DNA of 61,218 bases from a virus. The position numbers were made by a program, and so were the translations under genes. Under the pieces are notes generated by a model that saw nothing but the letters and a program-made list of their open reading frames with translations, was not told the DNA's origin and did no database searches. Shown here piece by piece: positions 7,984 to 37,470 of this stretch. Where the stretch lies: the IMG/VR virus record IMGVR_UViG_3300017917_002198, positions 1-61,218 of that record; one strand, given 5' to 3'. The first letter of the stretch is position 1. The number at the start of each line of letters is the position of its first letter.

Positions 7984-8010
7984 GGTATTCAAAATTATTA
8001 ATTATATTTA
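7984..8010 (+). promoter_or_regulatory. Early promoter cassette, GGTATTC variant
   Basis: GGTATTCAAAAT from 7984 and TATATTTA at 8003-8010. First of four GGTATTC copies (7984, 8423, 9080, 9638), all in the most AT-rich part. Confidence 0.75.
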
Positions 8011-8051
8011 ATTATTAAAATTTATTTATTAATTATTAAAAATTAAAATTT

Positions 8052-8372
8052 ATGAAATTAATTAAGATTAATTATGTTGATTTTAAAAATGGTAGTTTAA
8101 AATTAGTGTTTGAAGATTTAATTGGTTTAGGTAGTTGTTTTGATGGTGATGTACCGGAATTATTAAAAATGGTTTATGATTTATTAATGTATTCAGATGA
8201 AGAAATTAAAGAGTGGTGTAAAATAACTGATTATGTTAATAATGAGTTTAAATTATTTTTAGGTAATGGTATTGATATTGATTGGAGAGACGCTTATGAA
8301 GTGGTAATAAATAATGTAGATGAGAGTATAGTGGATGAAGCGTTGACAAAGATGTTTAAATTGATTAAATAA
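8052..8372 (+). CDS. Acidic early protein, 106 aa
   Basis: Starts MKLIKINYVDFKNGSLKLVFEDL and is rich in Asp, Glu, Asn, Val and Ile, with a predicted alpha/beta fold. The C-terminus is helical (DEALTKMFKLIK). No family is recognised. Only about 8 of 321 coding-strand bases are C. Its net negative charge leaves open a DNA-mimic role, which is speculative. Confidence 0.72.
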   Translation: MKLIKINYVDFKNGSLKLVFEDLIGLGSCFDGDVPELLKMVYDLLMYSDEEIKEWCKITDYVNNEFKLFLGNGIDIDWRDAYEVVINNVDESIVDEALTKMFKLIK

Positions 8373-8382
8373 TTAATTAGTG

Positions 8383-8412
8383 ATGAGGGTAACTAATAAT
8401 GGTTGCCCTCAT
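8383..8412 (+). terminator. Hairpin terminator, repeated type
   Basis: ATGAGGG (8383-8389) pairs with CCCTCAT (8406-8412), and AAC with GTT inside. The same hairpin recurs at 9520-9549 and 9578-9607. Confidence 0.75.
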
Positions 8413-8422
8413 TTCATATTAA

Positions 8423-8449
8423 GGTATTCAAAATTATTAATTATATTTA
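8423..8449 (+). promoter_or_regulatory. Early promoter cassette, GGTATTC variant
   Basis: GGTATTCAAAAT from 8423 and TATATTTA at 8442-8449. It drives the gene at 8487. Confidence 0.75.
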
Positions 8450-8486
8450 ATTATTAAAATTTATTAAAAATTAAAAATTAAAAATT

Positions 8487-8792
8487 ATGAATGTATTAAA
8501 TGAAAGAGTTATTAATTATTTTGAAGAAATGATTTATGATTTTTGTTGTGGTAATGATAATGTATATGATGAGGGAACTTTATTAGATTTTTTATATGAG
8601 GGAGAAGAAAAAATGGATTTAGATAATTATAGTGAAAAAGATGTTGATAATTTTGTATATGTAAGAGATTATATATTAAATGAAGGTGGTGAAGTTAAAT
8701 ATATAAGAAATGTTGATGGTAAAGAATTAGAGTATACATTTGAAGTAATAGAAGGAGATATTAAATGTAGTTTTATAGAACCTAGTTGGTAG
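8487..8792 (+). CDS. Acidic early protein, 101 aa
   Basis: Very acidic, with an N-terminal helix (MNVLNERVINYFEEMIYDF) and a middle rich in Asp, Asn and Tyr (NYSEKDVDNFVYVRDYI). The C-terminal part looks like a beta sheet (VKYIRNVDGKELEYTFEVIEG). No family is recognised. Coding strand very poor in C. Confidence 0.7.
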   Translation: MNVLNERVINYFEEMIYDFCCGNDNVYDEGTLLDFLYEGEEKMDLDNYSEKDVDNFVYVRDYILNEGGEVKYIRNVDGKELEYTFEVIEGDIKCSFIEPSW

Positions 8793-8804
8793 AATAATAA
8801 TGAG

Positions 8805-8828
8805 GGAACCACTTAAAATAGTGGTTCC
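8805..8828 (+). terminator. Intrinsic terminator
   Basis: GGAACCACT (8805-8813), loop TAAAAT, AGTGGTTCC (8820-8828), followed by TTATTTTA. The stem can extend into AATGA / TTATT. Confidence 0.8.
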
Positions 8829-8840
8829 TTATTTTATATA

Positions 8841-8867
8841 GGTAGTCATAGTTATTAATTATATTTA
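8841..8867 (+). promoter_or_regulatory. Early promoter cassette
   Basis: GGTAGTCATAGT from 8841 and TATATTTA at 8860-8867. It drives the gene at 8891. Confidence 0.8.
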
Positions 8868-8890
8868 ATTATTAAATAAAATTAAAAGTT

Positions 8891-9079
8891 ATGGAAATTT
8901 TAAATGGTAGAGAAATATTGGATCATGATGGTATTTTTATTAAGTTTAATGATGATGGAGTTGGGATGTTTATAAGTGAGGATAAAGATTTAAACTTTAA
9001 TGAATATGAGGGATGTAGTGAGGATGGAATAGTAGAATTAGATGGAAAAATAATAAAATGGGGAATATTATTTAATTAA
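8891..9079 (+). CDS. Small acidic early protein, 62 aa
   Basis: Beta-rich acidic protein: MEILNGREILDHDGIFIKFN, then DGVGMFISEDKDLNF and ELDGKIIKWGILF. This could be a compact all-beta fold. No family is recognised. The next promoter starts at the base after its stop. Confidence 0.68.
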   Translation: MEILNGREILDHDGIFIKFNDDGVGMFISEDKDLNFNEYEGCSEDGIVELDGKIIKWGILFN

Positions 9080-9106
9080 GGTATTCAAAATTTTATTTTA
9101 TATTTA
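9080..9106 (+). promoter_or_regulatory. Early promoter cassette, GGTATTC variant
   Basis: GGTATTCAAAAT from 9080 and TATATTTA at 9099-9106. It drives the gene at 9146. Confidence 0.75.
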
Positions 9107-9145
9107 TTTTATAAAATTATTTAATAAAAATTAAAATTAAAATTT

Positions 9146-9508
9146 ATGAAATTAAGTGAATGGTTTAATGAAAAAATTGAAGAAATTAGAATTAATGTAA
9201 ATGATTATGGTTTAAGTGATGAAGAAAAAAGTGAATGGTTGAAATTTAATGATGAATTTTGGAAGTTTGATGGTGAAGATAGAGAAATAGTGTTGGAAGA
9301 TTTAATGAAGGATGAAGGGTTGTTATATAAAAAGGTAGTAGAATTTAATGAAAATGAATTAGTGGTTGAATTAGGAATGGGTAATGATATGTGGGAATAT
9401 AGTATTGAAGATGAATTCAGGGATGAATTTGGAGATATATTTGGGTTAAGGAATATGATATTATATGGTGAGGATTATAATGATAGTATTTGGGATTATA
9501 ATGATTAA
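9146..9508 (+). CDS. Highly acidic early protein, 120 aa
   Basis: Rich in Asp, Glu, Trp and Asn (MKLSEWFNEKIEEIRINVND, DDEFWKF-like segments, EDYNDSIWDYND end). The net charge is strongly negative, a general property of DNA-mimic and anti-restriction proteins, but no such family is recognised. The coding strand has a single cytosine in 363 bases, forcing GAA/GAT/AAT/TTA codon use. Function unknown. Confidence 0.7.
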   Translation: MKLSEWFNEKIEEIRINVNDYGLSDEEKSEWLKFNDEFWKFDGEDREIVLEDLMKDEGLLYKKVVEFNENELVVELGMGNDMWEYSIEDEFRDEFGDIFGLRNMILYGEDYNDSIWDYND

Positions 9509-9513
9509 TAATT

Positions 9514-9636
9514 AAAATAATGAGGGTAACTAATAATGGTTGCCCTCATTTCATATTAAGGTAAAAAAATAAAAATAATGAGGGTAACTAATAATGGTTG
9601 CCCTCATTTCATATTAAGGTAAAAAAATAAAAATAA
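9514..9636 (+). repeat. 58-bp tandem repeat carrying terminator hairpins
   Basis: Two tandem copies, period 58, each with the ATGAGGG...CCCTCAT hairpin (9520-9549 and 9578-9607) and a TTCATATTAAGGTAAAAAAA tail. The same hairpin and tail lie at 8383-8420. In these copies the AAGGTA that would start a promoter runs into poly-A instead of TTCAAAA. Confidence 0.85.
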
Positions 9637-9637
9637 A

Positions 9638-9664
9638 GGTATTCAAAATTTTATATTATATTTA
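9638..9664 (+). promoter_or_regulatory. Early promoter cassette with long pure-A/T leader
   Basis: GGTATTCAAAAT from 9638 and TATATTTA at 9657-9664. The leader to 9773 is 108 bases with no G or C at all. Confidence 0.72.
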
Positions 9665-9772
9665 TTTTATAAAATTATTATTAATAAATTATTTATATAA
9701 AAATTAATATATTATATTAATAAATAAATAATTAAAATTAAATTAATTAAATAAAATTAAAAAATTAAAATT

Positions 9773-10000
9773 ATGAGTAATTATTTATTAGTAAAAGAAG
9801 TAATTAATGTAATGAATGTTGAAATGTTAATTAATGAATTTAATGAAAAATTTAATGAAGGAGAAAATATAAGTGAAGAAGAATTTAAAGAATTAGTAAA
9901 TAAATATAATAGTGATTGTAGTGAAGGTTATTATAATGATTTAAATTGGAAGTATATTGAAAGTGGAGGTAATGTTGAAATATTAATTAATGAAGGTTAA
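9773..10000 (+). CDS. Acidic early protein with cytosine-free gene, 75 aa
   Basis: Helical acidic protein (MSNYLLVKEVINVMNVEMLI, then NEFNEKFNEGENISEEEFKEL). The whole 228-base coding strand contains no cytosine, and the C-free run extends from 9645 to 10020. Codons are confined to the A/T/G set. No family is recognised. It is the last gene of the early region. Confidence 0.7.
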   Translation: MSNYLLVKEVINVMNVEMLINEFNEKFNEGENISEEEFKELVNKYNSDCSEGYYNDLNWKYIESGGNVEILINEG

Positions 10001-26542: not shown

Positions 26543-27988
26543 ATGTCTTCATACAAAAAGTTAAGTAAATCGGATGTTACGGTAGTACCTTACTACGCTA
26601 ATAAACAGTGGGATTTATTTTACTGTCCATACCCAACATCTTCCGACTATTTAACAATATATAAAGGTACTAACGTTACAGGATCATTTTCATTATGTGA
26701 TGATCCTGTAACTGAAGGACAATATGAAAGATTAGTTTATTCATCAATAAACCAAATGTTTTATCAGACGTATACGGCCTCATTAGATACGTCGTCTTTA
26801 GCCAATTCAATTTATTATGAATCTGCATCTCAACAGAGACCAACATCATCGTATTTCATATACAATGACAATATTAATTTCGTTAACAATTTTCCAACTG
26901 GAGTTAATGATGGGATTAGAGTATTAGCTATTAATCAAAATATATATGGTAATAAAATATTACCAAATAACTTTACTTTATCATCATCTGCTTATCTTAT
27001 AATAGATGATGGGTATGGTAATTTATATGATGTATCTGAGGATGTGTATTATAATAGATTGGGATATTACACACCGGAATTTACAAACTGGTATGTATTT
27101 AAAGATTATCCTTTTGTTGGGAATATATTTTATGCTCATGGTTTAGCAGTAATAACAAACCAAGATTACCAAATGATATTTCCTCTTCCACCGTTAGCTA
27201 AATGTGATTATGGAACATTTGAAATAACAGATTCACCAAAAACAATATCAGCATCATTTAATGATATAGCTAGAAGTGGAACATTAAATACATCGTCGAT
27301 TGTACTATCTGGTAGCACATCAGAATTAAGTAATTGGGTTACTGGAAGTTTAGGTACTGTTTTATTAACAGCTACTACACCGGGTACTTATACTATACAT
27401 TATACTATAGGAGCAGATATTGCTGGTTCTTGTCCTGTTCATTTAAGAAGTAACAAAACTAAAATTGTTGCTATAATTAATGAACCTCCACCGCCAACGC
27501 CGACGCCAACGCCAACACCTACGCCGACACCAACGCCGACACCGACGCCAACGCCTACACCGACATTAACGCCGACACCGACGCCAACGCCGACGCCAAC
27601 GCCAACGCCAACGCCAACGCCGACACCAACACCTACGCCAACGCCAACGCCAACGCCGACGCCAACGCCAACGCCAACACCAACACCTACGCCGACTCCA
27701 ACGCCGACACCAACACCTACGCCGACAGGACCTGTTCTGTATAGTATATCCTCGGGAGCTTATGGAGATCCAGGAGTATGTAGTGGAACTACAAGTGTAT
27801 CAGTTTATGCAGACCCAGGAAATAATGTACCAATGCCTGGTTTAACTTTATATACAACATATAATACAATAACATTTATAGGAGATAATAGTCCAACAGC
27901 CTGGTTCTTATTAGAAAAAGATGGTACTAAATGGAAAATCCAAATAGATACATCAGGAGTAATTCAAAACTATGGTAGTTGCCCATAA
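26543..27988 (+). CDS. Fibre protein with Pro-Thr tract, 481 aa
   Basis: Residues 1-312 are a beta-rich Tyr/Ser module ([20 protein letters not shown]). Residues about 314-396 are a nearly pure Pro-Thr repeat, and residues 397-481 form a separate C-terminal domain ([20 protein letters not shown]) with two Cys. Pro-Thr tracts serve as extended, stiff linkers, so the last domain is probably held away from the virion. It is paired with the protein at 29011, which carries a similar tract. Confidence 0.75.
27490..27729 (+). repeat. CCNACN hexanucleotide tract (Pro-Thr codons), copy 1
   Basis: About 40 CCNACN units with wobble positions varied among A, G, T and C, and local GC far above the surroundings. 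Coding for Pro-Thr. It is in direct orientation with the tract at 29119-29361. Confidence 0.95.
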
Positions 27989-29010: not shown

Positions 29011-29694
29011 ATGGGTAGTTTAGAAGTAGGTTCATTTTTATTAGGAACAACAGGTCAACTGAAAGTAGGATCATCTAATGTACAAGCGATATATGCTGGT
29101 AGTACATTAGTGTTCCCTCAACCAACGCCAACACCGACGCCGACTCCGACACCGACGCCAACGCCAACGCCAACGCCTACGCCGACTCCGACACCGACGC
29201 CTACGCCTACACCAACGCCAACACCAACGCCGACACTGACGCCAACGCCTACGCCTACACCAACGCCAACACCGACGCCGACGCCTACACCAACACCAAC
29301 ACCAACACCAACGCCGACGCCGACACCGACACCAACACCGACACCGACGCCTACACCAACGCCGTCTTCTCTTAGCATAAATTTAACAAATTCATGCACT
29401 ACTGGAGATGTAACTGAAATAGTAGTAGGTACTAACAGTAGTGGAACAATATCCGTAGCACCAAGTAGTATGTACAGCTTCTCAATTCCATTACAAAGTG
29501 GATCAACAAACATAGCTATAGCAATGAATAATGCTAATTCATCATTAACATATAATTTCGATGCTACAACATCACCAGGTGGATCTACAACGTCAACCAG
29601 TTACACTACACCTCAAGGTACAAGCTTTACAATGAATTTATCTGTTGACTTAACCGGTAAAACATCTTTAACAATAACTGTTAGAGATTACTAA
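29011..29694 (+). CDS. Pro-Thr tract protein, 227 aa
   Basis: Residues 1-36 are a short Gly/Ser/Val N-terminal module ([20 protein letters not shown]). Residues 37-117 are Pro-Thr repeats. The C-terminal domain of about 110 residues ([20 protein letters not shown] onward) is a Ser/Thr-rich beta sandwich of adhesin type. Its design mirrors the C-terminal half of the protein at 26543. Likely a fibre tip held on a linker. Confidence 0.72.
29119..29361 (+). repeat. CCNACN hexanucleotide tract (Pro-Thr codons), copy 2
   Basis: About 40 CCNACN units, direct orientation relative to 27490-27729. The opposite strand gives an artefactual Val-Gly ORF (29118-29513). Confidence 0.95.
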
Positions 29695-30885: not shown

Positions 30886-31830
30886 ATGGATAACGCAGCT
30901 TTATTGTTTCTAGTTGAATCAGTATTAGATAAAGGACAATCTACAAGTAAAGGTAATTACGCCTTTAAATGTCCCTTCTGTTCACATCATAAGAATAAAT
31001 TAGAAATTAATTTACGAACAACAGATAAACGTGAAAATTTTTGGCATTGTTGGATATGTGGTGTTAAAGGTAAAACATTATTATCTTTATTTAAAAAAAT
31101 TAAAGCACCTGCTGATAAAATAGCTGAACTAAATATTTTAATAATTCCATCTAAACATGAAAAGTATGTTACTGGAAATGGTGTTTTAGAATTACCAAAA
31201 GAATTTATTTCTTTATCTAATATTAATAATTTAGATAAATTAACACAAATCGAAGCAAAACACGCTCTAATATCATTAAAGAAACGAGGTATTACTCAAG
31301 ATGATATTATAAAATATAATATTGGTTTTTGTAAAGATGGACCCTACAATAACAGAGTTATTATCCCGTCATACGATAATAATAAAGCACTAAACTACTT
31401 TATAGCCAGATCATACAGAGACTCAGATCGCAAATATAAAAATCCTCCAGTAGCTGCTAAAGACACTATTGGTTGGGAATTATATATAAATTGGGATGCA
31501 CCTATAATACTTGTTGAAGGTATATTTGATGCATTAACTATTAAACGAAATGTTATACCATTATTTGGTAAAGTACTACATGATAAATTAATGAAAAAAC
31601 TAGTTGAATCTTCTGTTAATCGTATTTATATTGCTTTAGATAAAGATGCTAGAAAAGATGCACTTAAACAAGCTGAAAAATTAATGTCATATGGTAAAGA
31701 AGTATATATGGTAGAGATGGAAGGTAAAGATGCTAATGAAATAGGATTTGAAGCATTTTTAAATACAATTGAACAAACACAACCACTAACCTTCCACAGT
31801 TTACTTGAGAAAAAATTACAATTATTATGA
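30886..31830 (+). CDS. DNA primase, gp61-like, 314 aa
   Basis: N-terminal zinc finger C29-x2-C32 with C55-x2-C58 (FKCPFCSHH, FWHCWICG), then the Toprim domain with Glu211 (ILVEGIFDAL) and D252-x-D254 (ALDKDARKD). This is the bacterial/phage DnaG-type primase layout that makes RNA primers for lagging-strand synthesis. It is shorter than DnaG and has no helicase part. The stop overlaps the start of the nuclease gene at 31827, so they are translated together. Confidence 0.88.
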   Translation: MDNAALLFLVESVLDKGQSTSKGNYAFKCPFCSHHKNKLEINLRTTDKRENFWHCWICGVKGKTLLSLFKKIKAPADKIAELNILIIPSKHEKYVTGNGVLELPKEFISLSNINNLDKLTQIEAKHALISLKKRGITQDDIIKYNIGFCKDGPYNNRVIIPSYDNNKALNYFIARSYRDSDRKYKNPPVAAKDTIGWELYINWDAPIILVEGIFDALTIKRNVIPLFGKVLHDKLMKKLVESSVNRIYIALDKDARKDALKQAEKLMSYGKEVYMVEMEGKDANEIGFEAFLNTIEQTQPLTFHSLLEKKLQLL

Positions 31831-32609
31831 TAGAAAAAAACACAAACATTATTAAAGATCCCAAAATAAAGCGGATTGTTGAATATAGTAGTGATACTAA
31901 ACAAATTAATGTATTAGATCAACGTTTTTACAAACGTAACGATAAATTTTATCCATCTGTTAGTACTATATTAAATTATTTCCCTAAAAATAATTTTTTC
32001 CATAATTGGTTAAAAGATGTAGGACACAATGCTGAAATAATTGCTTCTAAAGCGGCCGCTGAAGGCACACAAGTACACAATGCTATTGAAGCATTTATAA
32101 ATGGAGAAGAAATAAATTGGATTGATGAATATGGAAATGTAAAGTATAATTTAGATGTTTGGAAAATGATTTTAAAGTTTGCTGAATTTTGGAATACACA
32201 CAAACCAGAATTAATAGCAGCTGAATACCATTTATTTTCAGACGAATACCAATATGCAGGTACGGCTGATTTAGTTGTAAGATTAAATGAGAAGATATGG
32301 TTGATAGATATTAAAACATCAAATTCATTACACACATCATATGATTTACAATTAGCATCATATGCTAAAGCGTGGAATGAAACACACGATCAACACGTTG
32401 AAGAAACCGGAATATTATGGTTAAAAGCGGCTACCCGTGGTGAGGGTAAAAAAGGTAAGATACAAGGTAAAGGTTGGGAATTAAAAGTAATAGGGGAAAT
32501 TGAAAAAAACTTTAGTATGTTTACAAACATATACGAAATATATAAATTAGAAAATCCAGAACATGAACCTGTTACTGAATTATTACCAACATCTATTAAA
32601 CTTTCTTAA
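31827..32609 (+). CDS. PD-(D/E)XK nuclease, 260 aa
   Basis: RecB/Cas4-type PD-(D/E)XK signature: HNAIEAFINGEE (about residue 90), AGTADLVV with D148, then LIDIKTS with D161-x-K163, and QLASYAKAW with the Gln-x-x-x-Tyr motif. Such enzymes act as exonucleases in DNA repair, recombination or degradation. Length is normal for the single-domain type. Four-base overlap with the primase gene suggests a replication or recombination role. Confidence 0.85.
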   Translation: MIEKNTNIIKDPKIKRIVEYSSDTKQINVLDQRFYKRNDKFYPSVSTILNYFPKNNFFHNWLKDVGHNAEIIASKAAAEGTQVHNAIEAFINGEEINWIDEYGNVKYNLDVWKMILKFAEFWNTHKPELIAAEYHLFSDEYQYAGTADLVVRLNEKIWLIDIKTSNSLHTSYDLQLASYAKAWNETHDQHVEETGILWLKAATRGEGKKGKIQGKGWELKVIGEIEKNFSMFTNIYEIYKLENPEHEPVTELLPTSIKLS

Positions 32610-32644: not shown

Positions 32645-35182
32645 ATGAAAAAAACAGCAATTTTAATTGCCGCCTTGTTTTTGGGAATGACGACATTCGC
32701 CCAAATTAAAGGTAAAGTGGTGGATCAAAACACAAAAGAAGTACTAGCAGGAGCAACAGTTAGTACAGAAAAAGGAAGTGTAACATCTGGATTAGATGGT
32801 ACCTTTGAGTTTAAAACAGTAAAAAACGGAGACAGATTAAAAGTATCTTTTGTTGGATACAAGAATGTTGATGTTGTTGCTAAAAACGGAATGACAGTTG
32901 AATTACCATCAACGTCAATTGGTCTTAAAGAAGTAGCAGTAATGTCTTCTTATGGTATAGACAGAAAAACACCAGCTGCTATATCATCAGTAAATACAAA
33001 ATTTGCACAAGAGAATTTAGGTTCTCAAGAATTACCTGAATTACTGAAAGTTACCCCATCAGCATTTATTACTAAGTCAGGAGGTGGGTTAGGTGATTCT
33101 CGTATTAACATTAGAGGATTTGATCAGAAAAACGTAGCAGTATTAATTAACGGTATACCGGTTAATGATATGGAAAATGGTTGGGTTTATTTTTCTAACT
33201 GGGCTGGTATTGGTGATGCCTTAAAACAAATGCAAGTACAAAGAGGTTTAGGTGCTTCTAAATTAGCTATTCAATCAGTTGGTGGTACAATGAATATTAT
33301 TACTAAAACTACTGATGCTGAGAAAGGTGGTTCTATTCAACAATCTTTAACTGATTTTGGACAATCTAAAACTGTATTGTCGTTATCTACTGGAAATACT
33401 AAGTATGGTGCATTATCTTTTGTAGGTAGTACCACTCAAGGACAAGGTTATATAAATGGTACATGGGCTAAAGCATATTCATACTTTTTATCATATGCTA
33501 AAGATTTAGGAACTCACCATAAAATTCAATTTATTGCTTTAGGTGCTCCACAAGAACATGGACAACGTAGTTCAAGATTAACAGCAGCGGAATATGATAA
33601 ATATGGCTTGAAATACAATAAAGATTTATATATGGCTTATGGAGCCCAAAATAATATCAATATTAACTATTTCCACAAACCAATATTCCAGTTAAACCAT
33701 TATTGGACTGTTAATACCAAAACAAACATTACAACTTCGTTGTACGCTTCTTTTGGACATGGGGGTGGTAGTGGTGCTATTGGTTCATATGCAAACACAA
33801 TCGTTAGAGACGGTGAAGGAAGATTATTATTTGATCCCCAATTGGTTACAAATATGAATTCTTCAACAGGATCTAAATATGGTATTAGAAATTCAATCAA
33901 TAATCACACTTGGTATGGTGTATTATCAACATTAAATCACCAATTAAGTAATACATTAAATTTAACATTTGGTATTGATGCTAGAACTTATAAAGGAACT
34001 CACTTCAGAGAAATGAGAAATTTATTAGGTGGTTCTTTTTATAAAGATGCTTTTACAACAAAAGCAACAGTAGATCCTAATTCAAGTTCTTATTGGGATA
34101 TTACATCAGTTACACCAGTAAATAATCGTATCGCTTATGATAATGATGGTCTAGTTGATTATTATGGTTCTTTTGGTCAATTAGAATACTCAAAAAACAA
34201 ACTATCAGCGTTTGCTCAAGGTGCAATATCTGAAACAAAATATGGTAGAGTTGATAGATACAATGCTACTTATACTGAATACAATGCTGAAAGAGTATCA
34301 ATTACTGGTTACAATTATAAAGGTGGATTTAACTATAATTTAACTGATAAACACAATGTATTTGTAAATGGTGGACAATATAGTAGAGCTCCGTATTTTG
34401 GATTTATATATAATGGAACAACTACAACATCAAATCCTAATAGTGGTAATGCTGTAAATAAATCAATTACTAACGAAAAAGCAACTGCCGTTGAAGTTGG
34501 ATATGGATACCGTTCCAAAGGTTTTAGATTTAAAGCAAATGCTTATTATACTAACTTTAAAAACCGTTCTTTAACTTCACCATTATTAACTAATCCTGAT
34601 GGAACACAATATAGAGCGTTAATTGTAGGTCAAGATGCATTACATAAAGGTATTGAACTTGAAGCTCAAGTTAAATTAACTAAAAAATTAGACATTAATG
34701 CATTCGGATCTTTTGGTGATTGGAAATGGAAAGGTAATGCTTCTGCAACACTGCGTGATGAAATATTAAACGTTGATAAGAAAGTAGCAATTTATTCTGA
34801 TGGTTTATATGTTGGTGACCAACCACAAACCCAAGTTGGTGGATATGTTAGATACCAATTAACTAAAAGTTTAGACGCTTCAGCAACTTATACTTATAAT
34901 GCTAAGTATTATAGTTACTATGATCCATCTTCAAGAACAACAGCAAGTATAACATCACAACCATATAAATTAGATAATTTTGGTGTGGCTGATGCTAGAA
35001 TTGGTTACAAATTTAAAATTGGTAAATTAGATTCTTATGCTCAAGCGCAGGTTTATAATTTATTAAATACTAATTATTGGGCTGAAGCTAATGATGCTGG
35101 TGGTAATGCCGTTGGTACATTAGGTAGCGGATTTAAAGGATGGGGACGTAATTCTAATGTAAGCGTTAAGATTAACTTCTAA
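32645..35182 (+). CDS. TonB-dependent outer-membrane receptor, 845 aa
   Basis: Complete receptor. Residues 1-20 are a signal peptide (MKKTAILIAALFLGMTTFAQ), 21-95 a carboxypeptidase-regulatory-like beta domain (GKVVDQNTKEVLAGATVSTE), and about 96-101 a TonB-box-like KEVAVM. Residues 107-222 are the plug (GLGDSRINIRGFDQ, VLINGIPVNDMENGWVYFSN, VGGTMNIITKT). The rest is a 22-strand-type barrel ending in Phe (SVKINF). No frameshift or stop. Base use matches neighbouring phage genes. It starts 36 bases after the nuclease gene and ends at its own terminator (35203-35229). Its role in a phage is unknown; candidates are receptor exclusion, nutrient uptake or outer-membrane change. Confidence 0.92.
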   Translation: MKKTAILIAALFLGMTTFAQIKGKVVDQNTKEVLAGATVSTEKGSVTSGLDGTFEFKTVKNGDRLKVSFVGYKNVDVVAKNGMTVELPSTSIGLKEVAVMSSYGIDRKTPAAISSVNTKFAQENLGSQELPELLKVTPSAFITKSGGGLGDSRINIRGFDQKNVAVLINGIPVNDMENGWVYFSNWAGIGDALKQMQVQRGLGASKLAIQSVGGTMNIITKTTDAEKGGSIQQSLTDFGQSKTVLSLSTGNTKYGALSFVGSTTQGQGYINGTWAKAYSYFLSYAKDLGTHHKIQFIALGAPQEHGQRSSRLTAAEYDKYGLKYNKDLYMAYGAQNNININYFHKPIFQLNHYWTVNTKTNITTSLYASFGHGGGSGAIGSYANTIVRDGEGRLLFDPQLVTNMNSSTGSKYGIRNSINNHTWYGVLSTLNHQLSNTLNLTFGIDARTYKGTHFREMRNLLGGSFYKDAFTTKATVDPNSSSYWDITSVTPVNNRIAYDNDGLVDYYGSFGQLEYSKNKLSAFAQGAISETKYGRVDRYNATYTEYNAERVSITGYNYKGGFNYNLTDKHNVFVNGGQYSRAPYFGFIYNGTTTTSNPNSGNAVNKSITNEKATAVEVGYGYRSKGFRFKANAYYTNFKNRSLTSPLLTNPDGTQYRALIVGQDALHKGIELEAQVKLTKKLDINAFGSFGDWKWKGNASATLRDEILNVDKKVAIYSDGLYVGDQPQTQVGGYVRYQLTKSLDASATYTYNAKYYSYYDPSSRTTASITSQPYKLDNFGVADARIGYKFKIGKLDSYAQAQVYNLLNTNYWAEANDAGGNAVGTLGSGFKGWGRNSNVSVKINF

Positions 35183-35193
35183 TTATATTCTTA

Positions 35194-35203
35194 AATATTT
35201 ATA
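35194..35203 (+). promoter_or_regulatory. Late-type promoter motif next to a terminator
   Basis: AATATTTATA directly before and touching the terminator stem. Transcription from here would have to pass the hairpin. Confidence 0.4.
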
Positions 35204-35229
35204 GGTGGTTTGACTTGTTCAAACCGCCT
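35203..35229 (+). terminator. Terminator after the receptor gene
   Basis: AGGTGGTTTGA (35203-35213), loop CTTGT, TCAAACCGCCT (35219-35229): 11 bp with one G-T pair, followed by ATTTTTATTTA. Confidence 0.9.
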
Positions 35230-35245
35230 ATTTTTATTTATATAT

Positions 35246-35256: not shown

Positions 35257-37470
35257 ATGAATAATAATTTTACTGTTGGTTGGTGGAAAGAAGTATTAGA
35301 TCTTAACGAATACTCTAATAAAGTAATTAATACACTAGTAGACAAATTTAAGCAAGAAGAACCCAGTTTGGAAACAGACGTTATCAAAGCATATATCAAT
35401 CGTTTTGATCAAATTAAAAGTAGCCCTAAAATATCTAATAAAGATATTACTAAATATAGTTGGAAAGAATTAGAAACTGTAGTTAATGATAATCAACCAA
35501 AACGGGTTAAAGCAGGTAAAATTAATGATGGTGAACCGGAAAATGCTGATTTAGTTTATAATCAACATGGGTTAAGAGTGTACGTTGGTAGAGATCATAA
35601 AGCTTGTATTAAATATGGTAATGGATACTCATTTTGTATTTCTTCTCGAGGAGATGATGGGGAAAATATTTATTCAAATTATAGATATGATGAAATGGGA
35701 ACACCCTATTTTGTATTTGATGATACTAAGTCTTCTGAAAAGGATGAAAATGGAAAATTCATAGATGACTACCATTTACTTGTAGTATTTGTTTATATGG
35801 GTGAAGTCAAACCGTATTCAGTAACAAAAGCTAGTAATAAAGAAGGAGAAGAGTATTTTGATAGTTGGGACGATATGGTAAAAGCTTACCCGGAACAACC
35901 AAAGTTAAAATTTTTAAAAAATATAATTAAACCTATAGATATAGATCCAAAAGAAAAAACAAAATACGATATTAAAAATGAATACACTTGGAGGTTAAGC
36001 AATGTTAATAATGATTATTATAAAAAATATCAAAAAGAATTTGGGGATGAATATTCTTTTGAAAATATTATAGGAGCTAATGCTAAAATTGATGATATTA
36101 TAAAAGGTAAAACAGAAATATATCGTTTTAAGGGAAAACTTAAACCTACAGCAGATGAACAAGACTATGCATTTCTTAAAATAAGCCAATTTAGACTTAT
36201 AAAACCAGGAAATGTAGAAGAAGCATATAAAGAATTTATTGATAATATAATAATGCCCTCGTATATGGGTTCTAATGAAGATCACAATATTGTAGATGAT
36301 TGGATTATAACATATGTAAAAACAGATACTATAAAAAATCCCCAATATAAAGAATATCTTAAAAATATTAAACAGATAGTAGACCAATATAGAAGTGAAA
36401 TAAGTAAATTAAATTTACTAAAAGAAAATTTAAAACACAACAATAAACTAAATGAAAGCCAAACAGCTACTATTGGTGAGTTTGTTAAATATGCTATTAA
36501 GAATTTGGGAATACAAAAACCTCCACGTAACTTAACATTATCTTATGATAATAACAAAGCTAAAGATATGAGTAGCTTTGGTTATTTTGATCCAAATAAT
36601 AATAGAATATGGATCTATTGTGCTAATAGAAATATGGCTGATATTTTAAGAACATTAGCTCATGAATTAGTTCACCGTAAGCAAGATGAAGACGGTAGAA
36701 TAGATAATACAAGTGGTGAAACTGGTTCTGAAATTGAAAACGAAGCAAATGCTCAAGCTGGTGTTTTATTAAGAGATTTTGGTAAACAAAATAAAGACAT
36801 ATATGAAGTATTATTAAGAGAGGGAGTGTATGGAGATTATTTATTTGGAGACAAAGAATCAGGAGTAGCTATACTATGGTATGAAGATGAAAAAGAAGAA
36901 GATACAGTTGCTGAACATGCATTGTTTAATTTGTTAAGAAAGTATGCGAGCTCTACAGCAGATATTTATGGTACTATTAATTTAGATCATTTAATTCCGG
37001 TATTAAAAGAATTAAAAAAGGAATACCCTGAGATAGTAGACCCAAAAATAAACGGCGAAACATATATCTATAGAGGAACATCAATACCTGAAGAAAAATT
37101 AAATGAATTGATGTATGGAGCAAAAACAGAACCATACACAAAAACGTACGATCAGGGTATTATAATAATGAATCAAATGTATTCATCTAGACGTAAAGTA
37201 CAATCATGGAGTATTAATTACAACAATGCTGCTACATTCGCTGCGTCTACAGCAGAAACAAAAGGAGGGGTACCTGTAATAATGAGAGCAAAAGCTAAAA
37301 ATGCTGAACTATTCTTTAAACCAGAATTTATGGATAAATTAAGTTCACAGTTAGAAGACGAAACGTTTAATATTACTAACCCAATCCCAGCTGATGTTAT
37401 GGTATTAGAAAACTATAAAGATGATTTTGAAAATATAGAAGCAGGTTATCAACATACAAAACGAAAATAG
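35257..37470 (+). CDS. Polyvalent effector: metalloprotease motif plus R-S-E ADP-ribosyltransferase, 737 aa
   Basis: Start at MNNNFTVGWWKEVLDLNE. The longer frame from 35215 runs back into the terminator. Residues 1-18 are a tag ending Leu-Asn-Glu. Residues about 85-180 hold a KYGNGYSFCISSRG domain. Residues 388-400 contain two more L-x-E sites (LKE at 388-390, LNE at 398-400) in a Lys/Asn helix. HELVH at 469-473 (LRTLAHELVHRKQDE) is a zinc metalloprotease motif. The C-terminal domain has R606 (IYRGTS), S650-W-S652 and E700-D-E702: the R-S-E signature of arginine ADP-ribosyltransferases such as T4 Alt and ModA. Likely packaged, cut by the prohead protease, and injected. Confidence 0.78.
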   Translation: MNNNFTVGWWKEVLDLNEYSNKVINTLVDKFKQEEPSLETDVIKAYINRFDQIKSSPKISNKDITKYSWKELETVVNDNQPKRVKAGKINDGEPENADLVYNQHGLRVYVGRDHKACIKYGNGYSFCISSRGDDGENIYSNYRYDEMGTPYFVFDDTKSSEKDENGKFIDDYHLLVVFVYMGEVKPYSVTKASNKEGEEYFDSWDDMVKAYPEQPKLKFLKNIIKPIDIDPKEKTKYDIKNEYTWRLSNVNNDYYKKYQKEFGDEYSFENIIGANAKIDDIIKGKTEIYRFKGKLKPTADEQDYAFLKISQFRLIKPGNVEEAYKEFIDNIIMPSYMGSNEDHNIVDDWIITYVKTDTIKNPQYKEYLKNIKQIVDQYRSEISKLNLLKENLKHNNKLNESQTATIGEFVKYAIKNLGIQKPPRNLTLSYDNNKAKDMSSFGYFDPNNNRIWIYCANRNMADILRTLAHELVHRKQDEDGRIDNTSGETGSEIENEANAQAGVLLRDFGKQNKDIYEVLLREGVYGDYLFGDKESGVAILWYEDEKEEDTVAEHALFNLLRKYASSTADIYGTINLDHLIPVLKELKKEYPEIVDPKINGETYIYRGTSIPEEKLNELMYGAKTEPYTKTYDQGIIIMNQMYSSRRKVQSWSINYNNAATFAASTAETKGGVPVIMRAKAKNAELFFKPEFMDKLSSQLEDETFNITNPIPADVMVLENYKDDFENIEAGYQHTKRK

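Follow-up and report, generated by a model that had tools for sequence, protein, structure and literature searches.

The 61,218-base window, which is the whole stretch of DNA analysed here, encodes an intact TonB-dependent receptor (TBDR) that is inserted into a cargo slot in which related phages exchange unrelated TBDRs and other genes. The reading that we favour, with some reserve, is that the receptor would serve as an energised importer of organic phosphorus during infection. This reading comes from its bacterial and viral relatives, which adjoin phosphate-scavenging genes and secreted nucleases.

A complete TBDR in a phage fragment

The record (IMGVR_UViG_3300017917_002198) is viral, with genes for terminase, portal, endolysin, baseplate, primase and exonuclease, and is without reported end repeats or a completeness estimate. 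On sequence grounds the phage is T4-like and related to Flavobacterium phage immuto, a cultivated relative of 160 kb: its portal (60% identity) and exonuclease (57%) are closest to those of immuto, and the primase–exonuclease order is common to both, which makes it a relative of immuto and a candidate member of Immutovirus. As the window is a 61-kb fragment and its relative immuto has a much longer genome, we can only infer the lifestyle of the phage and its host, which would be an aquatic member of the Bacteroidota; the term "lytic" in the preliminary description goes beyond such a fragment. Two parts of the window differ in character from their surroundings. Positions 8001–10000 show a GC drop to 0.20–0.21, a GC skew of 0.75–0.85 and small ORFs, unlike the remaining window, and positions 27488–27727 and 29121–29364 are repetitive, GC-richer and tail-fibre-like, with many cross-matches to the related phage L190.

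The TBDR gene is a single open frame running from ATG to TAA with 0 internal stops (Table 1). The preliminary description held the receptor to be intact, and the signal-peptide-like start, regulatory domain, plug, barrel, terminal Phe and undamaged frame were all found. Its assertion of phage-like base use likewise stood when codons were checked against the other window genes, as GC3 (0.147) and codon distance (0.092) lie within their range.

Table 1 Features of the TBDR gene, its protein and its flanks in the window
Feature	Position	Strand	Basis
Toprim DNA primase	30886..31830	+	Pfam, PHROG
PD-(D/E)XK exonuclease, left slot anchor	31827..32609	+	Pfam, PHROG; basis of slot survey
Inserted cargo vs empty site of L190	32601..35191	+	Flanks align at 88–89% nt, to 32600 and from 35192
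TonB-dependent receptor (TBDR), 845 aa	32645..35182	+	Open frame, Pfam domains, AlphaFold2 model, PDB TBDR matches
Signal-peptide-like N-terminus, aa 1–20, end ...TTFAQ	32645..32704	+	Read from sequence
CarbopepD_reg_2 N-terminal domain, aa 21–99	32705..32941	+	Pfam E 1.4e-11
TonB-box-like segment LKEVAVMS, aa 94–101	32924..32947	+	LKEVAV/LKEVSV in phage and bacterial relatives
Plug domain, aa 107–215	32963..33289	+	Pfam E 5.5e-12
TonB_dep_Rec_b-barrel, Pfam-matched part, aa 323–806	33611..35062	+	Pfam E 2.4e-19
ATATTTATA box of downstream gene, probable phage promoter element, slot right edge	35195..35203	+	Strand-biased motif
13-bp hairpin then T run, ancestral slot element	35201..35231	+	66-nt stretch folds at -21.4 kcal/mol
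Right slot anchor, large protein, weak metallo-protease match	35257..37470	+	PHROG 87 E 2e-4

AlphaFold2, supplied with an alignment of 50 sequences, models the protein as a complete barrel with its plug in place (mean pLDDT 83.4, pTM 0.80), whose strands reach residue 844, next to the terminal F845, which is invariant across the alignment of relatives. In the 50-sequence alignment E96 and V99 of the TonB-box-like segment are nearly invariant, and the plug is the most conserved segment among relatives, more so than the barrel. With a plug, a 22-strand-type barrel, a TonB box, a signal-peptide-like start and a C-terminal aromatic residue, the protein is a member of the TBDR class, and its conservation makes it very probably a working transporter that phages keep under selection.

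Foldseek matched many solved TBDRs, the nearest being PqqU/YncD, Fiu, FecA and FhuA, all at 12–15% identity; these matches settle the fold as that of a TBDR but do not settle what it carries. A sequence search of the PDB returned 0 matches, and the best match in the viral structure library is a "SusC" of an uncultured marine phage. In NCBIfam the window TBDR has weak matches, far below cut-off, to heme/transferrin and B12 receptors and no SusC/RagA-type match; no SusD-like gene was found among the neighbours at the window locus. By these sequence features the receptor would not be classed as the SusC of a SusCD pair.

The TBDR gene occupies a cargo slot

The gene upstream of the TBDR, called a replication nuclease in the preliminary description, is indeed a PD-(D/E)XK exonuclease following a Toprim primase. 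By comparison, the supposed injected effector downstream yields just the weak metallo-protease PHROG match listed in Table 1, and its likely start is the ATG at 35257, not the TTG at 35215. In L190, the closest TBDR-less relative, which shares 88–94% nucleotide identity with the window across most neighbouring core genes, the homolog of the right anchor comes directly after the nuclease, with ~25 nt where the window has its insert. Set against that site, the TBDR gene is a clean insertion of 2.6 kb, located 3' of the PD-(D/E)XK nuclease gene, and the insertion into the window phage is recent, since its closest relative is empty at this site.

The hairpin downstream of the TBDR had been taken for the gene's own terminator. 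This role is ruled out, because the same hairpin stands at the empty site of TBDR-less L190. The ATATTTATA box at 35195 is also present there and in other relatives, and versions of both elements occur in L196, L213, L217 and L219. Hence, the promoter-like box and the hairpin are assigned to the slot and not to the TBDR. The motif ATATTTAT(A/T/G) lies on the + strand, mostly just upstream of genes (TATTTATA occurs 22 times on + vs 6 on -), with window sites at, for example, 18937, 24848, 27988, 29697, 35195, 38059, 43798, 47679, 51739, 53652 and 58697. Its placement suggests that it is probably the T4-type late promoter element of the phage; no ATATTTAT motif lies directly upstream of the TBDR.

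Unrelated outer-membrane cargo genes have a leader in common, which consists of a ATATTTATG(C/A)TTGAA-like start, a GC-rich hairpin, a T run, an A/C-rich stretch and the ATG (L008:9879-10000, L217:8786-8904, L219:8786-8905 and L267:8786-8906, and near 8800-8910 in L226 and L206). The hairpin stems differ in sequence yet stay paired, and among the related-phage loci checked the ATATTTATG box was found before such cargo genes only. In phages of other lineages (L002, L004, L005 and L006) a terminator-like hairpin ends shortly before the TBDR ATG, which is not seen in the bacterial locus L082. A hairpin in this position is possibly an attenuator or a 5' stabiliser. An Rfam scan of the loci returned tRNA only.

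Relatives were fetched through the nuclease gene, giving 90 phages, from which 3 whose contigs break off inside the slot were set aside to leave 87 readable, the window included. A TBDR is present in the slot of 16 of these 87, and the receptors are of at least three unrelated types. The carriers are the window, L008, eight phages with family F4 (Plug + OMP_b-brl_3) and six with family F6 (CarboxypepD_reg + OMP_b-brl_4), several of the F4 and F6 copies running off contig ends. The phage F4 receptors are without the N-terminal CarbopepD_reg domain, and their loops are shorter than in aligned bacterial relatives. In L223 (8815-10557) the F4 gene is broken, its frame being lost in the barrel, and its lipoprotein partner is intact. 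The remaining readable slots are empty or hold other cargo, including GT2 glycosyltransferases (13 loci), LpxH-like metallophosphoesterases (14) and zeta-toxin/AAA-like kinases (21); the slot of immuto is without a TBDR. On a quick nuclease-plus-primase tree the slot state changes at least 13 times by parsimony, gain not being separable from loss. Furthermore, L267, with a TBDR, and L275, with a GT2 and a phosphoesterase, have flanking DNA that is 95–97% identical. Tail-adhesin regions vary in many of the phage pairs compared, with no clear tie to slot type. The site 3' of the nuclease is a cargo slot in which related phages exchange unrelated TBDRs and other cargo.

The combination of GT2 and LpxH-like metallophosphoesterase occurs as alternative cargo in L191 (8798-10239) and 12 further loci; the LpxH match of this phosphoesterase family (F1) is below cut-off. 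Similar phosphoesterase genes adjoin a TBDR–polyphosphate kinase pair in Crocinitomicaceae and the F6-type TBDRs of L282 and L283.

The presence of unrelated TBDR types in one slot would also suit superinfection control, in which the phage receptor replaces, competes with or masks that of the host and thereby wastes or shuts out phages arriving later, whether kin or rivals. Many phages use TBDRs as receptors, the envelope could likewise be altered by the alternative cargo (GT2, LpxH-like phosphoesterase), and differing slot TBDRs would then track differing host receptors. In addition, T5 Llp blocks the TBDR FhuA (PMC9586334), and the FhuA–Llp structure is among our PDB matches. However, masking needs neither a plug nor a TonB box, both of which are strongly conserved here, the plug above the barrel, and an added TBDR alone leaves the host receptor in place.

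Distribution and selection of phage TBDRs

The window TBDR is closest (70–76%) to copies on viral contigs from other lineages, which also encode a Gp23 capsid protein (L005), a clamp loader (L003), an endolysin (L002) or terminase plus portal (L004). The single bacterial close copy, L082 (69%, chromosomal context), nests among the phage copies, and in its family a match at E 1e-100 is missing from 195 of 197 genomes. The clade of the window TBDR, as sampled, thus appears mostly in phages of several lineages, a spread that argues against both a recent host capture and an assembly join. Recent capture, which had been proposed earlier, is rejected on this phylogeny together with the phage-like base use. 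By comparison, the L008 TBDR groups with Crocinitomicaceae genes (69–70% identity vs 53% to the window), which leaves vertical inheritance of one TBDR by the window phage and L008 unsupported. The L008 receptor may be a mosaic, as its N-terminal domain is phage-type-like and absent in the Crocinitomicaceae hosts.

A further large clade, at ~34% identity to the window TBDR, consists entirely of viral contigs in our sample, with T4-type portal and terminase in five long records plus L078. TBDR genes of two types, the window type in L003 (1644-6047) and the ~34% type in marine contigs such as L052 and L065, are followed by the same AAA ATPase (MSK..NLFGGPGIGKS). This neighbourhood suggests a second phage slot with exchanged TBDR types.

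Every dN/dS value estimated by NG86 falls well below 1 (0.13–0.28 for the window type, 0.06–0.20 for F4 and 0.11–0.16 for F6, with synonymous sites close to saturation in distant pairs), indicating purifying selection on the slot TBDR copies; the lipoprotein partner of F4, F7, is under purifying selection of its own. At E 1e-80, F4 had 0 matches in 295 Bacteroidia genomes, and at a looser limit it was found in Flavobacteriales.

It might still be argued that the TBDR does nothing for the phage and is a chance-carried host gene or the product of an assembly join, as the closest phage L190 is without it, the exact window junctions were found in no other contig in a pattern search of viral contigs, and one F4 copy (L223) is broken. 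Against this stand a clade common to several phage lineages, phage-like base use, purifying selection and the repeated acquisition of TBDRs in one slot, and we regard such an origin as highly improbable. A join at 32.6 or 35.2 kb in particular is unlikely, because related phages, assembled independently, also have TBDRs in this slot and in further phage settings.

Gene neighbours of relatives suggest a link to phosphorus

Among the same-strand genes beside bacterial relatives of the window TBDR (36–69% identity), PF01663 phosphodiesterases/nucleotide pyrophosphatases account for 13 of 46 and polyphosphate kinases for 4 of 46, so that phosphorus-related neighbours make up under half (17/46). 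The TBDR relative comes first in these loci, followed by the phosphodiesterase or polyphosphate kinase. The window TBDR itself has no phosphatase or secreted nuclease adjoining, and L082 lies near a myo-inositol oxygenase.

The slot families add to this link. The layout of phage F4 and its lipoprotein F7 matches Fjoh_0545-0546 (pf07715, pf13715, pf14905; beta-helix lipoprotein), which belong to the PhoBR operon of F. johnsoniae and are induced by Pi depletion (PMC8115612). Bacterial F4/F7 relatives adjoin PhoB-like regulators and a PhoR/PnpS-like kinase, whose matches are below curated cut-offs and rank first. For F6 the link comes from two bacterial loci only, each beside a metallophosphoesterase. 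F4 and F6 are separate families, whose phosphorus link may not extend to the window type.

Other viral TBDR loci encode a secreted S1/P1 nuclease (17 loci) or a signal-bearing nonspecific endonuclease (8 loci). All of these nuclease genes lie no more than 2 kb from the TBDR, a zone that makes up only 27% of the flanking bases; as the contigs are not independent of one another, an exact probability for this clustering should be read with caution. In L006 a PF01223 gene is directly downstream of the TBDR, and in six of these other viral loci a GT2 directly follows it. Such nucleases could cut incoming DNA and would in this respect also fit superinfection control. Nevertheless, F4 is paired with a lipoprotein partner under its own selection and the gene neighbours indicate phosphorus, and we consider superinfection control unlikely, a weaker rival to phosphorus import.

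General uptake cargo for another nutrient, such as an iron complex, a vitamin, a PQQ-like cofactor or a glycan, with no special phosphorus link, is what the closest solved folds (PqqU, Fiu, FecA and FhuA) and the NCBIfam matches to heme/transferrin and B12 receptors would suggest. These family matches are weak and far below cut-off, the fold matches say little on substrate at their level of identity, and relatives have phosphodiesterases and polyphosphate kinase beside them, with F4 matching a Pho-regulon pair; this alternative seems to us quite improbable. Of the three earlier readings, nutrient import fits best, now narrowed to phosphorus by the neighbours. Being phage-encoded and having bacterial relatives that suggest a host-derived function, the window TBDR is a candidate phosphorus auxiliary metabolic gene (AMG).

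In the phosphorus reading, the TBDR cargo would be co-transcribed with the replication genes, its product would be routed through the host Sec and BAM machinery, and host TonB would drive the import of nucleotides, phosphodiesters or inositol phosphates. The imported phosphorus would allow more phage DNA to be made in phosphorus-poor water, and some phages supplement this with a secreted nuclease, with a lipoprotein partner of Pho-regulon type or with what may be a lipid-remodelling pair. More tentatively, large T4-like Bacteroidota phages could keep interchangeable cassettes for phosphorus harvest at the outer membrane, partly in fixed slots, comprising a TBDR alone, a TBDR with a Pho lipoprotein, a TBDR with a secreted nuclease, or lipid-remodelling enzymes; those with a nuclease might recycle DNA of lysed cells into phage genomes. 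The slot pairs window/L190 and L267/L275, which differ in cargo in otherwise similar genomes, offer a direct natural test of the phosphorus reading.

Comparison with known systems

Most known phage genes for phosphorus supply come from cyanophages, and their products work in the periplasm or cytoplasm: pstS, for a periplasmic protein, and phoA, for an enzyme, raise phosphorus supply during infection. The window TBDR resembles them as a phage gene with a proposed role in phosphorus supply and differs in that the step would be at the outer membrane. Should the phosphorus reading be true, phages would control nutrient supply at the outer membrane of Bacteroidota, a group that does much of the breakdown of organic matter; this would also explain why unrelated import gates repeatedly land in one phage slot. 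Where nuclease cassettes are present, the virus would take an active part in recycling nucleic acids in phosphorus-poor water.

The Lc/NmpC porin of PA-2 is a phage-encoded outer-membrane protein acting in superinfection exclusion. Both Lc and T5 Llp resemble the window TBDR as products of phage genes at the outer membrane; Lc is a porin and Llp a small lipoprotein (PMC9586334), whereas blocking by the window TBDR is putative.

The annotation of a phage TBDR is itself already known. The marine megaphage Mar_Mega_1 has a gene for a SusC-like TBDR, proposed as an uptake AMG and read as serving carbohydrate uptake (PMC9723777). It resembles our case in placing a TBDR gene within a phage genome and differs in being described by annotation alone, with no slot, exchange or phosphorus link; LR745206, in which the same SusC gene has been reported, aligns with P0001 over 145 aa only, at 32% identity. 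Beyond that paper, phage TBDRs appear in the literature mostly as annotation mentions or in abbreviation lists, and neither a slot with recurrent exchange nor the phosphorus link was found in the open-access literature searched.

Slot cargo F1 + F2 resembles, by gene kinds alone, the PlcP–Agt system of lipid remodelling in phosphorus-starved bacteria, a metallophosphoesterase and a glycosyltransferase (PMC4796936); this likeness is a lead. The Pus loci of F. johnsoniae comprise Fjoh_0545-0546, the TBDT Fjoh_1368 with a phytase, and PUSIII with a PPK-like gene, their TBDTs being induced by Pi depletion (PMC8115612). Phage F4 and F7 have the same layout of TBDT (pf07715, pf14905) and beta-helix lipoprotein, and bacterial relatives of the window type also adjoin polyphosphate kinase. 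The Pus loci lie on a bacterial chromosome, while the window TBDR is phage-borne and belongs to another TBDR subfamily.
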